IMG/VR virus record: IMGVR_UViG_3300012920_000233
Span: 1 to 25,679 of that record
Direction: 5' to 3' (one strand)
Length of the DNA: 25,679 nucleotides
DNA from: a virus
Of this stretch, positions 3,600-23,062 are shown in pieces. Under the pieces are notes generated by a model, which worked only from the letters and a program-made list of their open reading frames with translations, did not search any database and was not told where the DNA came from. The stretch's first letter is position 1. Each line of letters opens with the position of its first letter. The position numbers and the translations under genes are program-made.

Positions 3600-3836
3600 T
3601 CACATGAAGAAAGCATTGATCACTAATGAAGATAATAAGCCAATTACAATACCTGCAATCTGCCATAATCTTTTGTTTGTGATATTTATATCAGACTCAA
3701 TAGAATCTAATCTACGAAAATTTTCTTTCCATTTTTGTTCACAAACTTTTTCATGCCTATCAAGGGCATTTGCTACTTGTTCAACTGTGGGTCTTTTAGT
3801 CGATTGTTTTTGTTTCGCTGTCTGCTGCTTCTTCAT
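3600..3836 (-). CDS. Small tail-anchored membrane protein, XhlA-like
   Basis: The 78-aa protein has a Lys/Gln-rich start and a helical, coiled-coil-like middle (about 18-55, with RRLDSIESDINITNKRL). It ends in one membrane helix (about 58-76, IAGIVIGLLSSLVINAFF). This layout is that of XhlA/hemolysin-type small phage proteins, which accompany holins in lysis cassettes. The 'rl..iE.d.n..n..l' spacing before the helix supports this. It overlaps the upstream small gene by 41 bases and ends two bases before the MscS-like gene. No good Shine-Dalgarno is visible, so coupling is likely. Spanin or a second holin are alternatives; no lipobox is present. Confidence 0.55.
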   Translation of the reverse strand: MKKQQTAKQKQSTKRPTVEQVANALDRHEKVCEQKWKENFRRLDSIESDINITNKRLWQIAGIVIGLLSSLVINAFFM

Positions 3837-16636: not shown

Positions 16637-17023
16637 TTATGCTGTTGAAGTTGTTAAGCCACCAGAACCTTGTAAAGTTACACTAGCTTCGACTAAACCA
16701 TCAAAAGATGCACTTCTTGTAAAGCCTGTCACAATTGCAGAACCATTGTAGTAAGTGTCACCTGTTGAAGTACCTTCAGGATAAACTTCTAAAGTAACAG
16801 TTGAGCCTACAGATAGTGCAGTTTGTGCAGTGTCAGTTTCGTCAAAAAATACTTCTACAGATGCTGTAAATTGTGTAAGTGTAGATAAATAACTTCTTGA
16901 AGAATCGCCCATTGCAGTTTTTTCTACAACATCAGCACTTTCTTCAAGCGAGTATGATCTTACTTCAGCAACAGTATTAGCACCGACTTTGATTACGCCT
17001 TCGCTTCCTTTATGTACCGCCAT
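16637..17023 (-). CDS. Major tail protein (tail tube), 128 aa
   Basis: The sequence MAVHKGSEGVIKVGANTVAE and VRSYSLEESADVVEKTAMGD, with later VEVFFDETDTAQTAL and a final SVTLQGSGGL, follows a known tail-tube pattern: 'a..G....v.vg...v.ev..ws.e...d.vd.T.mg'. These are short tail tube proteins of marine and proteobacterial siphoviruses. The all-beta sequence of about 130 aa is the expected size. A good Shine-Dalgarno (AAGAGGT) precedes ATG 17023, fitting high expression. It lies between the tail terminator and the chaperones, as in lambda. Confidence 0.8.
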   Translation of the reverse strand: MAVHKGSEGVIKVGANTVAEVRSYSLEESADVVEKTAMGDSSRSYLSTLTQFTASVEVFFDETDTAQTALSVGSTVTLEVYPEGTSTGDTYYNGSAIVTGFTRSASFDGLVEASVTLQGSGGLTTSTA

Positions 17024-17955: not shown

Positions 17956-18359
17956 TATTGTTCCTCTAAAATTAATTCTACAAAACCTGTATTATCAGGT
18001 TGTACATTTTTTATTTTGAATATTGTTTCAGGTTTTAATACTGAACCCTTGTTAGTGGTAATTGCATTTACAGTCAAAATATCATCCTGTGATATATAAG
18101 GAACATCTGTAGCTTTAACCAATGCTTTAGGTTGATAACCTGCAACAGCAATAGAATCTCCTTGTATGTCAAAATACTCTTGATCTATTATGATATTAAT
18201 ATTGATTGAATCACCTGAATCTATATCAAACCAAGTATCTATAAATCCAACTCTAGTATCCCATAATGAATTTTGTACTTCATTAAATACAGCAGTTACA
18301 CCAAACCCTGTTGTTGTATCAAGGTAAGCGTTAAAATCTGCTGCACTTTCTATTGCCAT
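17955..18359 (-). CDS. Head-tail joining protein, gpFII-like, copy 1, 134 aa
   Basis: The sequence GFGVTAVFNEVQNSLWDTRV, SININIIIDQEYFDI, YQPKALVKATDVPYISQDDI and VQPDNTGFVELILEEQ matches the gpFII layout; in lambda the protein has '.lfvrtdev..l..gd.L.....f.v..v.pd..G...l.L'. It is closely related to the next gene (17602-17955), especially in INIII..EYF, the AV.A..V...D.....LTV..I core and the closing TGF...LEE. Its start is the expected overlap with the stop of the small gene upstream, with only a weak AGAAG. The position between the capsid and tail genes fits head completion. Confidence 0.7.
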   Translation of the reverse strand: MAIESAADFNAYLDTTTGFGVTAVFNEVQNSLWDTRVGFIDTWFDIDSGDSININIIIDQEYFDIQGDSIAVAGYQPKALVKATDVPYISQDDILTVNAITTNKGSVLKPETIFKIKNVQPDNTGFVELILEEQ

Positions 18360-18571
18360 TATTTACTTCTTTTTTTAGGAGAAGGAGTTTCAGATTTTTC
18401 TAAACCAACACTTCTGTCAGTCTTCTTTTTTGTTTCTTTAACAGTAGATAATTCAGCTTTTTTATAACCAATAAGAATTGCACCTTCATCATCAGAAAGC
18501 TCTACTATATCACCTGCTTTAACTTTTTTATTGTCAGCTAAAGTATCTGACAGTATTAAATATTTTTTCAT
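18359..18571 (-). CDS. Small head-region protein, 70 aa
   Basis: The frame is open further upstream, but ATG 18571 (MKKYLILSDTLADNKKVKAG) is chosen. AAGGTGAT precedes it at a good distance, and the upstream part coincides with a terminator hairpin. The N-terminal half (VKAGDIVELSDDEGAILIGYKKAEL) looks like a small SH3-like beta barrel, a pattern seen in small proteins encoded just after capsid genes. The last 30 residues are a Lys/Ser/Thr-rich tail ending PKKRSK. The place matches lambda gpFI or gpD-region accessory proteins, but I cannot assign a function. Confidence 0.65.
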   Translation of the reverse strand: MKKYLILSDTLADNKKVKAGDIVELSDDEGAILIGYKKAELSTVKETKKKTDRSVGLEKSETPSPKKRSK

Positions 18572-18587
18572 TTCATCACCTTTTTTA

Positions 18588-18622
18588 GAAAAGGCGGTAG
18601 ACAAAATGCCTACCGCTTTTTC
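18588..18622 (-). terminator. Hairpin terminator after the capsid gene
   Basis: A 13-base-pair stem (18588-18600 with 18610-18622, including GCGGTAG/CTACCGC and one wobble) has a nine-base loop. It is flanked by A- and T-runs on both sides, so it could act on either strand. On the late strand it lies 15 bases after the capsid stop and ends in CTTTTC. It would reduce read-through from the capsid gene to the joining and tail genes. Confidence 0.65.
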
Positions 18623-18636
18623 AGTTGTTAGTGTCA

Positions 18637-21600
18637 TTAACTAGCTGTACAGAAAGATACCGCGTGTCTGACATTTACATCTAGACTTTGTAAAGCCACA
18701 ACTCTAACAGTACCAGAAGTGCTGTTTGAGTAAGGGTCTACAACAATATCTAAACCTGAGAACATACCTACTAATAAGTCTTGCATGTTACCGAAAACGT
18801 AGTTGTTTGCAGTAAGTTGTGCAGAAACTACAACAGGGTAACCATTGATCTCATTGTTAGCTAAAACAAATTGACCAGAACCACTGTCCTTAGTAGTTGT
18901 TTTCAAAGTACCTGCATTAGTTGGGTGAACGATGTATACAAGTCCTCCTAATAGTGCATTATCGACAGCAACAGAAGATTCCATAGAAACCATCTCAGCA
19001 AAAGTTGGTGCAGCAGCACTATTTAAAGAAACAGTGTTTACGCCTGTAGTGTTTGTAATACCTGTAGGATTACCACTTGAACCAGAACCTTCTAAAGCTG
19101 CATTATCAATCGCAATAGCCATTGAACCTGCTAAGTCATTTCTAATTAAGTTTTCAACATCTAAAGATGACTGAATCATAAGCTGACGAGTTACGTCAGT
19201 GAAAGCACCTAAAGTTTTAGGTGACATAGTCACTGAACCAATAGTCATTTCTGATTCACCGGCAGCACCACCCTCAGAAGAAATAAAAGCTGCAGTAGAA
19301 GCTGCTGTTTTCTTCGGAATTTTGACATCGCCAGATAGACCATTAAGAATAGTTGCATTCTGCATTACAGCAGAAGAATTTCTTAATACGTCAATAAAAT
19401 CACCTGCTCTGAAGTCTTGACCAATAAGGTTAGAATCGTCAGATGCGTTCATGTCACGTTGACCCCAATTAGCTAATACTTCTGGTGGTAGTAAAACACC
19501 TTGTGCTGTCTTACCATATAGTTCACCTGCTGCTCTTGAACATTCAAATTCAAATGCTGCATCTTCTTGAGCCTTGCGGTCAGTAGGGTTAGCCATTGCA
19601 TTAATGGCTCTTAAAATGCTAAATCTTTTGGTTTCTTTTTCAGTTAAACCGATTTCAGAAGGAGTTTCTAAAGGTTGGTCATTAGAAATATTTTCTAGCA
19701 ATACACCTCTAAATTCTTCGACTGATAAACCATCAGAAATAGCTTGATCAGCTAAATCTCTTTTGTTGTGTCTAGCAGCTAAGTCAAGAATCTCTTTTGA
19801 GTTTCTTTTAAACTCTGCTTTTGCTTCTTCAACAGTTTTAGATTTAACCTCGTCAAGATTTATTTCTTGTACTTCATTTTCCATTTTTCTTACCTCTTTA
19901 TGTAAAATGTTTTGGTTATCTTTAGAACGACCTACACCGACTAATCTACTTTGGTCAGCAGGAACGCTTACAGAAGATACTTCCATAGGTGTCCAACTAG
20001 CACGATAATAGGTTTCATCGTCTTTGCCTGTACGTTCTAATTTATCTACTCTGTAGCCAACACTTATATTCATTCGAATACCATCGACCACATCTTGAAA
20101 TACTTCACGAGCAAGTTGAGATTTACCAAATCTAACGATAGCAATTGTCCTTTTAGCTACCTCGTCAAGTTTAAATTCCTCGATTACACCAATTTGTTTA
20201 GTCATGTCATGGTCTAACAATAATGGTGCGCGTCCACTAGAAATAAATTCCATATTTACTTCGTCAGCACGATGTCCTAGTACTTCCATACCAAAACTTC
20301 TTTCAACAGGTTCTTCTGATGATACGCCTATGCGGACTCTCCTATTTTCTTCATCGATACCAGAAGTTCGTGATAAGTCGATCAATCTATATTCCATAGA
20401 ACTTTCTACTTTACGTTCTTCTTCATCGTCATGGTATGGTCTTTCGTCCATTTCCATGTCCATTTCTTCCGACTCATCCTTCATTTTTTTGAACTCAATG
20501 ACTACTGAATCATCAGTTTCAGAAAAATTTAGGATATGTCTATCTTCTTTATTTTCAATATCCATAATCTTTTCCTCTTTATTTTTGGATGACATTGGAT
20601 GTCCTTCAGGCAATAAATCTGTGTCATGCTTTCCTGAACGGAAGCGACCATTGCGGAGGGCGTACAGAAAGGAATTTATCCTTGCTGCTGCCCATTGCTC
20701 AGGACTACTGACTGAAGGTCTTACAGAAGATGGATTAGTCTTATAAGCACCAATCCCTCTTTCGTAAACTTTTGATAGTACGCTGACTGTAGTTCTTTTT
20801 GATTTTACATCGCCTACTTCTTCATTATGTTCTTTTACTTTATTCTTAATCATTTCAAGAGCCTTACCTGATACTGCTCTATTTTCTTCTATAGCTTGTG
20901 TGTTAATTTTGCCACCCATTCCAGAATGATTAACACAATAATAATATAAGTCAGGCGTATCTTGATTGATAGTTATTGAAATTGATGCACCTTCTTCACC
21001 TGCCTTGCCTGATACTTCAACGCCTTTTGTATAGGCTTCACCATCATTATGCACACCATCTTCTGTAACAGAAAATCTTAAAGCGTGTGTTTTATTAGAA
21101 GCATCAGATAAATTAAATACATAAGTATTACCTTCAAGCATATAAAGTCTTGGAGATAATTCACCGTCTAAATAGAATTTATTACCTTCACCATATTTGT
21201 TTTTACCAGCTTTTATAATTACTTCGTATTCAATTGTTTCTTGTCTTACTTTATTTACTTCTTCGTTATAAGTTTGTCGTTCTTCTTTCATTTTTTCTAC
21301 CAATCTTCTTGACCAAGAATATCCTGCATCTCCTCCCCATAATGCCCATGCAATACGTCCATTTGAAGGATATCCTTCCTCGCCAGAATCAAATCCTTCT
21401 GCTTCTTTATCTACTTCATGTCTGCTAAAAAAGCTATACATTCTTTTTATAGTATCGTCAGATAAGTTTTCACCGGCAACAATTTGTCTTGCCCTAATAG
21501 CACCAACCCTAGTACCACCACGACCAAATTCTTCTCGCCATTCAAGACCTTTCTTTGCTTCAGCTTTCATACCGGCATTAGGTATCGCCATCGTCATCAC
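18637..21600 (-). CDS. Three-module head protein: unknown cupredoxin-like module, S78 prohead protease, HK97-fold major capsid protein
   Basis: A single 987-aa frame. Residues 1-112 hold a phage motif block (WREEFGRGGTRVGAIRARQI, RIAWALWGGDAG). Residues 122-232 form a beta-rich, cupredoxin-like segment with H172 and YYYCVNHSGMGG (C222, H225, M228). About 240-340 is a second phage block (QWAAARINSFLYALRNGR, DTDLLPEGHP). From M346 comes an HK97-type protease with His464 in LLLDHD and Ser513 in IRMNISVGYRV. From M573 there is a helical scaffold-like delta region (578-640), then an HK97-fold capsid domain (GVLLPPEVLANWGQRD; GSGSSGNPTGITNTTGVN). Starts at 20565 and 19884 have their own ribosome binding sites, so separate protease (227 aa) and capsid (415 aa) products are likely besides the full fusion. 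The outer start is GTG 21600 or the ATGs at 21597 and 21591, overlapping the portal end. Protease and capsid identities are firm; the first module is unassigned. Confidence 0.85.
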   Translation of the reverse strand: MMTMAIPNAGMKAEAKKGLEWREEFGRGGTRVGAIRARQIVAGENLSDDTIKRMYSFFSRHEVDKEAEGFDSGEEGYPSNGRIAWALWGGDAGYSWSRRLVEKMKEERQTYNEEVNKVRQETIEYEVIIKAGKNKYGEGNKFYLDGELSPRLYMLEGNTYVFNLSDASNKTHALRFSVTEDGVHNDGEAYTKGVEVSGKAGEEGASISITINQDTPDLYYYCVNHSGMGGKINTQAIEENRAVSGKALEMIKNKVKEHNEEVGDVKSKRTTVSVLSKVYERGIGAYKTNPSSVRPSVSSPEQWAAARINSFLYALRNGRFRSGKHDTDLLPEGHPMSSKNKEEKIMDIENKEDRHILNFSETDDSVVIEFKKMKDESEEMDMEMDERPYHDDEEERKVESSMEYRLIDLSRTSGIDEENRRVRIGVSSEEPVERSFGMEVLGHRADEVNMEFISSGRAPLLLDHDMTKQIGVIEEFKLDEVAKRTIAIVRFGKSQLAREVFQDVVDGIRMNISVGYRVDKLERTGKDDETYYRASWTPMEVSSVSVPADQSRLVGVGRSKDNQNILHKEVRKMENEVQEINLDEVKSKTVEEAKAEFKRNSKEILDLAARHNKRDLADQAISDGLSVEEFRGVLLENISNDQPLETPSEIGLTEKETKRFSILRAINAMANPTDRKAQEDAAFEFECSRAAGELYGKTAQGVLLPPEVLANWGQRDMNASDDSNLIGQDFRAGDFIDVLRNSSAVMQNATILNGLSGDVKIPKKTAASTAAFISSEGGAAGESEMTIGSVTMSPKTLGAFTDVTRQLMIQSSLDVENLIRNDLAGSMAIAIDNAALEGSGSSGNPTGITNTTGVNTVSLNSAAAPTFAEMVSMESSVAVDNALLGGLVYIVHPTNAGTLKTTTKDSGSGQFVLANNEINGYPVVVSAQLTANNYVFGNMQDLLVGMFSGLDIVVDPYSNSTSGTVRVVALQSLDVNVRHAVSFCTAS
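19882..19897 (-). promoter_or_regulatory. Internal ribosome binding site and start for the capsid module
   Basis: In-frame ATG 19882-19884 (M573, MENEVQEINLDE) is preceded by AGAGGT at 19892-19897 with a seven-base spacer. It sits exactly between the protease and the capsid scaffold-like region. A product from here would be 415 aa, a normal capsid precursor size. Confidence 0.7.
20563..20580 (-). promoter_or_regulatory. Internal ribosome binding site and start for the protease module
   Basis: In-frame ATG 20563-20565 (M346, MDIENKEDRHIL) is preceded by AAAGAGGAAA at 20571-20580, with AGAGGA seven bases from the start. A product from here up to the capsid start would be 227 residues, a normal S78 protease size. 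Confidence 0.7.
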
Positions 21601-23062
21601 CGCCTTGTATAGTTGGCTCTACAGGTAATTTAGTACCAAAAGGTTGATAAGCTATCTCAATTCCATATTGTTTAGCTAGTTCAACTTCCTTTTGATGTTG
21701 TTCAAATAACTCTTCCGTATCTCTACCATAAGCAGCAGATATATCTGAGTAAGTCATAGTACCGTTTTGTAAACCTAACACACTTGATTGCATTTCTTTC
21801 AATGGGTCAATCCAAGAAAAACTTCTTGGTATGTAATTTATAGAACGTGCAAATTTATCATATTTAGAAATAGGTAAATTTATATAGCCACTAGATATAG
21901 CCATTTCTAACCATGACTTGAATATTGGGTCAATAAAGTGTTCTATAACAAACTGTTGATGCAATTGAAACATTGATCTATCTTCTAATGCACCTTGTCT
22001 TATTGAAGAATAGTTAACACTTGTAAGATCATTAGACAAAGCGTGATAAGAAATATTCAAACCAGATGCAATGCTTCTTAAAACTGATGTAGTGAAAGAT
22101 TCAAATGCTGAGGTAGGATGACTTGGGTCAAAGGCTTTGAAATCCATACCTGCAGGTAGTTGTTCAAATGTACCTGCATTAGCATTTGTGACAGGATTAA
22201 ATGTATCCTCCATGTCATCATCACCAACATAGCCATCACCATCAGGACTTACAAAAAATCCCATTTTAGATGCACCAACCCTTGCTGCTACTATTTCGGC
22301 TTCTAAGTAACCATTAAGCATTTTGACATTACTCATTGCAGTTGCAATTAAAGATACACCTCTTGTTTGTTCTGCTCTATTAGGTAAGTAAGCGTGTATT
22401 ATTTCATCTGCTGGAACTCTTATGTATTCGTTTTGATTGACATAAGTCCTATCATAAGGATGATTTTTATATAAGTGATAGGCAACAGGCTTGTCATTAG
22501 CATCAACTTCGACACCCATTTTAATTCTATTGCCATTCTTTGCATTGTCATTTTTCTTTTCATCTAAATGGTCAGCTTCTAAAAATTGTATTTGAAAGCC
22601 AAAAGGACTGTTTGCATTTTTAATTTTTCTAATAAGAACTTCACCATCTCTTGCTAATGATTCAATAAATATTTTTTGACAATCTAGAAATGACATTCTG
22701 CCATTAGCTGTGCAATTACCTATCTGTGTCCATTCTTTCCATGCTCTTTCAATTAATAAATTAGCACCTATATCTAATGATTGGTCATCATTTCTTGCTT
22801 TAGCTGATATTCTGATACCATGCTTACCAATAACATTAGAAACCATAAGATTTAAATATCTTGCAATATAAGAATCGTTTCTAGCTAATTCTCTTGCTCT
22901 ATCTCTAAGCAATCTAATATTATCTTTTACTTCTTGGTCAGCAGATGTAGATGAAGTTAGAAAGTCACCAAACAATCTGCCTGTGTTTGCACCTTGATAA
23001 CTTCTTTTAAAAGTTTGTTTCTTTTTAGGTTTTCTACCAATTATGTTGTCGTACCAAGCCAT
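21578..23062 (-). CDS. Portal protein, lambda family
   Basis: The 494-aa protein has the lambda-type portal pattern: RLLRDRARELARNDSYIARY, then LMVSNVIGKHGIRISAKARN, and later IQFLEADHLDE and HAYLPNRAEQTRGVSLIATA. The 'R.r.LarN..ya.r.l.l.v.nviG..Gi' segment is characteristic of the family (Phage_portal_2). The portal forms the 12-subunit ring at one capsid vertex through which DNA is packaged and where the tail attaches. Its ATG overlaps the stop of the gpW-like gene by one base. Its last codons overlap the start of the three-module protein by about 20 bases, the lambda W-B-C gene order. Confidence 0.9.
   Translation of the reverse strand: MAWYDNIIGRKPKKKQTFKRSYQGANTGRLFGDFLTSSTSADQEVKDNIRLLRDRARELARNDSYIARYLNLMVSNVIGKHGIRISAKARNDDQSLDIGANLLIERAWKEWTQIGNCTANGRMSFLDCQKIFIESLARDGEVLIRKIKNANSPFGFQIQFLEADHLDEKKNDNAKNGNRIKMGVEVDANDKPVAYHLYKNHPYDRTYVNQNEYIRVPADEIIHAYLPNRAEQTRGVSLIATAMSNVKMLNGYLEAEIVAARVGASKMGFFVSPDGDGYVGDDDMEDTFNPVTNANAGTFEQLPAGMDFKAFDPSHPTSAFESFTTSVLRSIASGLNISYHALSNDLTSVNYSSIRQGALEDRSMFQLHQQFVIEHFIDPIFKSWLEMAISSGYINLPISKYDKFARSINYIPRSFSWIDPLKEMQSSVLGLQNGTMTYSDISAAYGRDTEELFEQHQKEVELAKQYGIEIAYQPFGTKLPVEPTIQGGDDDGDT

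Follow-up and report, generated by a model that had tools for sequence, protein, structure and literature searches.

What lies between the portal gene and the tail genes of this marine phage? The window analyzed here—the 25,679 nucleotides of IMG/VR virus record IMGVR_UViG_3300012920_000233—contains a standard head operon, in which one long open frame is flanked by the portal gene on one side and by head-completion and tail genes on the other (Table 1). The frame runs on the minus strand from GTG 21600 to 18637, 987 codons without interruption, and the three head-assembly modules that an earlier note on this DNA had read in it are indeed there. Its protease matches Peptidase_S78 (PF04586) above the cut-off at about residues 456–551 of the fusion, its capsid part matches PF05065 at residues 728–984, and PHROG 617, characterized by an S78 protease and an HK97-fold major capsid protein (MCP) in one frame, spans residues 398–985 (E = 5e-141). 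Against NF045541, whose curated cut-off is 525 bits, the fusion scores 142.5 bits over residues 412–682 only, and we therefore file it under PHROG 617 and not under NF045541. ATG 21591 is a likelier first codon than GTG 21600; its Shine–Dalgarno (SD) sequence, AAGGCGG, is strong and overlaps the 3′ end of the portal gene, and the product from this start is 984 aa (108.4 kDa). The next gene after the fusion (18359–18637) starts inside the fusion stop (taATGa), lacks an SD of its own, and is probably translated by coupling to the fusion. A sequencing or assembly artifact was rejected, because the protease–capsid fusion recurs in cultured phages and in many contigs.

Table 1. Features of the fused head gene and its surroundings (positions in the window)
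Feature	Position	Strand	Remark
Portal protein gene	21578..23062	-	directly upstream, overlapping the fusion start
SD AAGGCGG of full-length start ATG 21591	21600..21606	-	duplex -11.0 kcal/mol
Fusion of N-terminal module, S78 prohead protease, delta, and HK97-fold MCP	18637..21600	-	single frame
N1 domain, phrog_2859 type, helical	21280..21582	-	about residues 7–107
Cupredoxin-like beta domain	20887..21192	-	about residues 137–238
DUF5824 (PF19141) segment	20662..20811	-	residues 264–313
Internal SD AAAGAGG of protease start	20574..20580	-	
Protease module	19885..20565	-	residues 346–572; internal start ATG 20565
Internal SD AAAGAGG of delta/MCP start	19893..19899	-	
Delta (scaffold) domain	19438..19884	-	residues 573–721; internal start ATG 19884
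Mature HK97-fold capsid protein	18640..19437	-	about residues 722–987; putative cleavage near residue 721

Two in-frame ATGs fall on module borders, each behind an SD sequence, as the earlier note had also claimed. ATG 20565 (residue 346) is preceded by aataaAGAGGaaaagatt and its predicted product has 642 aa (70.2 kDa); ATG 19884 (residue 573) is preceded by cataaAGAGGtaagaaaa and would yield a delta–MCP product of 415 aa (43.9 kDa). At both positions, then, an in-frame ATG with an SD stands at the border of a shared C-terminal part, as in nested head genes of the lambda C/Nu3 type. The 19884 site is almost identical to caaaaaAGAGGTaaaagaaaATG, the ribosome binding site of the phage's own major-tail gene (16637–17023), and the duplex energies of the two internal sites (-6.3 and -7.2) lie in the same range as those of the phage's ordinary genes. 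When SD strength and local folding are summed, the internal sites reach 2.2 and 1.7, favorable relative to the mean of 9.5 for the remaining in-frame ATGs. Two of these 28 other ATGs (20595 and 20853) attain similar values in this crude sum, so the window alone is not decisive and the comparison across the family decides. Nor would the sum lead one to expect 19884 to be the strongest of the three starts (net 1.7, 2.2, and 1.8); SD strength by itself does not set product amounts. Internal promoters in place of internal ribosome binding sites were rejected, with 8 promoter-like sites in the region vs. 9.5 in shuffles.

How widely are these border sites kept among relatives? Scans of viral contigs, genomes, and phage records yielded 134 loci, to which further cultured phages were added afterwards. 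Protease and capsid share one frame in practically all of the loci, although the linker between them varies, and a search within PHROG 617 itself for split protease and MCP genes returned none (L134 is frame-broken, and L045 and L116 carry stops). Every one of the 128 aligned members has an ATG at the delta border, in most cases with an SD. In 123 it lies within the scanned stretch and in the other five, each with an SD-like sequence, just outside it; the linker before it is 8–43 residues long and variable in sequence. The ATG also occurs, mostly with a moderate SD, in 15 further phages of other hosts (Escherichia, Enterobacter, Serratia, Acinetobacter, Pseudomonas, Burkholderia, Achromobacter, Xanthomonas, Vibrio, Halomonas, Rhodobacter, Dinoroseobacter, and Synechococcus). 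The SD at this border is weak in FoX5 and MQ-4, and the cyanophages S-CBS1, S-CBS3, and S-LBS1 keep the ATG and lack the SD. At the protease border, ATG and SD are found in nearly all marine members that cover the region, including several that have no N-terminal module. The internal sites are kept among phages whose protease–MCP proteins are only about 35–46% identical. In one pair of relatives, CRP-821 and CRP-406 (L024 and L025), protease and delta resemble those of the window and the capsid domain after delta belongs to another lineage, a capsid swap downstream of the internal start.

Are the SD sequences conserved beyond what the encoded protein demands, as the earlier note had proposed to check in related phages? 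We swapped the upstream codons for synonyms at each gene's own usage and compared the mean SD energies. The observed energy was -6.28 at the delta site vs. -3.05 in the shuffles (Z = -10.2; 43 nonredundant members) and -7.66 vs. -4.37 at the protease site (Z = -9.3; 38 members), Z values that are too large because the members are related. Restricting the comparison to contexts that differ at four or more of the five upstream residues left Z = -5.1 for delta (n = 17) and -4.1 for the protease (n = 7). By comparison, 727 other in-frame ATGs in the protease–capsid part of the same genes showed no excess (-2.62 vs. -2.86 shuffled). ATGs in and upstream of the N-terminal module also have an SD excess (n = 152, Z = -9.9), in a set that includes true gene starts without separating them, and in a distant prophage set the excess is weak (n = 15, Z = -1.7). 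The metaprofile has a single dominant peak near -9 at both sites, with the peak of the GG core at -10; among the 61 delta contexts with a recognizable core, 37 have GG at -10. Across phages the delta-site SD is written in several codon registers (KEV, QRS, LED, and others), which points to selection on the RNA and not on the protein. Nearly all protease sites use one register, and the evidence there rests more on the shuffles.

A sister family contains both fused and split arrangements of these genes. Faecalibacterium phage FP_Epona encodes protease and MCP as separate genes, and the stop codon of the protease gene overlaps the SD of the MCP gene (TAGGAGG, followed by the MCP ATG). The fused members S1 and PBb001 retain SD and ATG at that border; in Stenotrophomonas phage S1, whose capsid protein and that of FP_Epona are homologs, the border reads caggag followed by ATG. 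The internal site therefore stands where the split relative has a true gene start.

The N-terminal module (residues 1–345), described in the earlier note as a single unknown module, is present and resolves into three pieces: a domain of the phrog_2859 type (N1), a cupredoxin-like domain, and DUF5824. N1 is likewise part of prohead proteases and portal proteins in other viruses; it is built into the prohead protease of the archaeal virus HGTV-1 (locus L153, 2501–2779), and haloviral portal proteins also carry it. The cupredoxin-like domain has a type-1-copper-like His-Cys-His-Met ligand pattern (H172, C222, H225, and M228) and beta strands predicted with low confidence by a structure model of the module that is reliable for its N1 and DUF5824 part only; a PDB fold search with the module gave no significant match. 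Across the family the module is optional and mosaic, with N1, cupredoxin-like, DUF5824, TUDOR, and RPYPNEHAA pieces in varying sets. The cupredoxin-like domain is absent from two loci (L004/L005) that elsewhere in the gene are about 97% identical to the window in the best segment, and it is found again on another N1 variant (L060). It has been mobile recently and also appears in tail-fiber and structural proteins of cyanophages and pelagiphages. In one further locus (L061, about 3740–3776) module and protease lie in different frames, which is either a natural split or a sequencing error. The N terminus of the capsid gene appears as a docking slot for accessory domains.

What does a finished shell from this family look like? 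Gene 006 of Dinoroseobacter phage vB_DshS-R4C (R4C; locus L149, 1902–3791) encodes 629 aa that align nearly end to end with the protease–capsid fusions. Like the window, R4C has SD and ATG at the border (ggagg, with ATG at residue 189); unlike the window, it has no N-terminal module. Its cryo-EM shell holds 415 copies (PMC10276861), in a paper from which the word "protease" is absent. The modeled chain (8gta) corresponds to residues 362–629 (268 of the 629, at the C-terminal end), which leaves the upstream part outside the modeled shell. From this chain we infer proteolytic activity and precursor cleavage for the fusions, and it also places the likely border of the mature MCP, with cleavage near residue 721 of the window protein. 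The earlier note had allowed for an N-terminal module on the capsid. This placement is unlikely, because the mature R4C chain comprises only the C-terminal part and because the module precedes protease and delta in the chain, two parts that in HK97-type heads point to the interior and are removed; for the latter reason the module probably sits within the prohead and is removed as the head matures, rather than being displayed. Volume also matters: in a cavity with an assumed radius of 20.5 nm, the N-terminal parts of 415 full-length subunits would take up about 113% of the space, 415 copies of protease plus delta about 60%, and 415 copies of delta alone about 23%. A mixed shell of many delta–capsid and few fused subunits would solve this filling problem (60%, and above 100% with the N-terminal module).

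We propose, with a probability of roughly 0.78, that this is a nested head gene whose three in-frame starts yield mostly delta–capsid protein and few fused subunits that deliver the protease into the prohead. Start 19884 would give delta plus capsid (44 kDa), the main shell subunit and counterpart of HK97 gp5; start 20565 would give protease, delta, and capsid (70 kDa), and start 21591 the full fusion (108 kDa). Both longer products would be minor subunits, built into the shell through their capsid domain, and each would thereby bring a tethered protease, and in the full fusion the N-terminal module, inside the prohead. The protease would then cut near residue 721, freeing a mature capsid protein of about 27 kDa, and the same cut would remove delta, protease, and N-terminal module. 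The use of all three starts, the dominance of delta–capsid, and the tether as delivery mechanism are what we infer from these data. The idea of nested products in unequal amounts, already raised in the earlier note, survives in its main part—two conserved border initiation sites, probable nested products, and a fused form as minor, protease-delivering subunit—and loses the display of the N-terminal module on the capsid. Since the sites are conserved beyond codon constraint, nested products are the likeliest reading.

Could the fusion instead be a polyprotein, made in quantity in its full-length form only and cleaved by its own protease before or during assembly, with the internal SDs unneeded? 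The S78 domain within the fusion and the maturation cleavage near residue 721 implied by R4C both suit this view, and self-cleavage before assembly could also fix the stoichiometry. Yet it leaves unexplained why ATG and SD, and their spacing, are conserved beyond codon constraint at two borders, and a protease made one-to-one with 415 capsid subunits would be wasteful; we regard this alternative as unlikely.

Two other readings grant the SD sequences a past or a different role, and we give each of them very little weight. Three once-separate genes may have been fused by stop loss, their old ribosome binding sites lingering without function. The split state with an SD at that very place in the sister family, and the swappable nature of the N-terminal module, would fit such a history, but in a hypervariable linker an ATG without a function would be expected to have disappeared, and the sites persist at the low protein identities given above despite changed amino acids and codon register. 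Alternatively, SD-like stretches might slow ribosomes for folding without starting translation, and they do lie at domain borders. Pausing, however, requires no ATG at a fixed distance, whereas the ATG is there in every aligned member and the GG core recurs at one position in most delta contexts with a recognizable core.

How does the nested arrangement compare with known head genes? In phage lambda, the protease C is a longer form of the scaffold Nu3 made possible by an in-frame internal start, and the shared C-terminal part targets it to the prohead. This is the nearest known scheme; in lambda the nested product is the scaffold alone, with the capsid protein in a separate gene, whereas in the window the nested product would comprise scaffold and capsid together. 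HK97 shares the S78 protease, the delta domain removed at maturation, and the HK97 fold with the window, but encodes the protease (gp4) and delta–MCP (gp5) as separate genes. The protease–capsid fusion itself is already catalogued (NCBIfam NF045541, PHROG 617 and 4523), with the same order of protease, delta, and MCP in one frame, as one fusion protein; the window adds the N-terminal module, an addition of the marine branch. Cultured phages with N-terminal module, protease, delta, and MCP in one frame, like the window, are Synechococcus phages S-CBS1 and S-CBS3 and Roseobacter phages CRP-811, CRP-821, and CRP-406, the latter three of the CRP-822 type (PMC12629253); their fusions are annotated merely as major capsid or head protein. 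Internal starts are annotated in none of the protease–capsid fusion records examined, and we found no report of them in the open-access literature searched.

We consider it fairly probable, though less so than the nested reading of the window itself, that internal initiation in protease–capsid fusions is an old and widespread control of protease dose in tailed phages. The fused forms would be minority subunits that each carry a tethered protease, joined in marine phages by swappable N-terminal modules, of which the cupredoxin-like domain is one, and the annotated MCP would not be the main shell subunit in this family. If so, this would explain how phages with the fused gene avoid hundreds of proteases per head, the start annotated for the major capsid protein would need correcting across many genera, and these genes would offer a simple case of dose control through nested starts.
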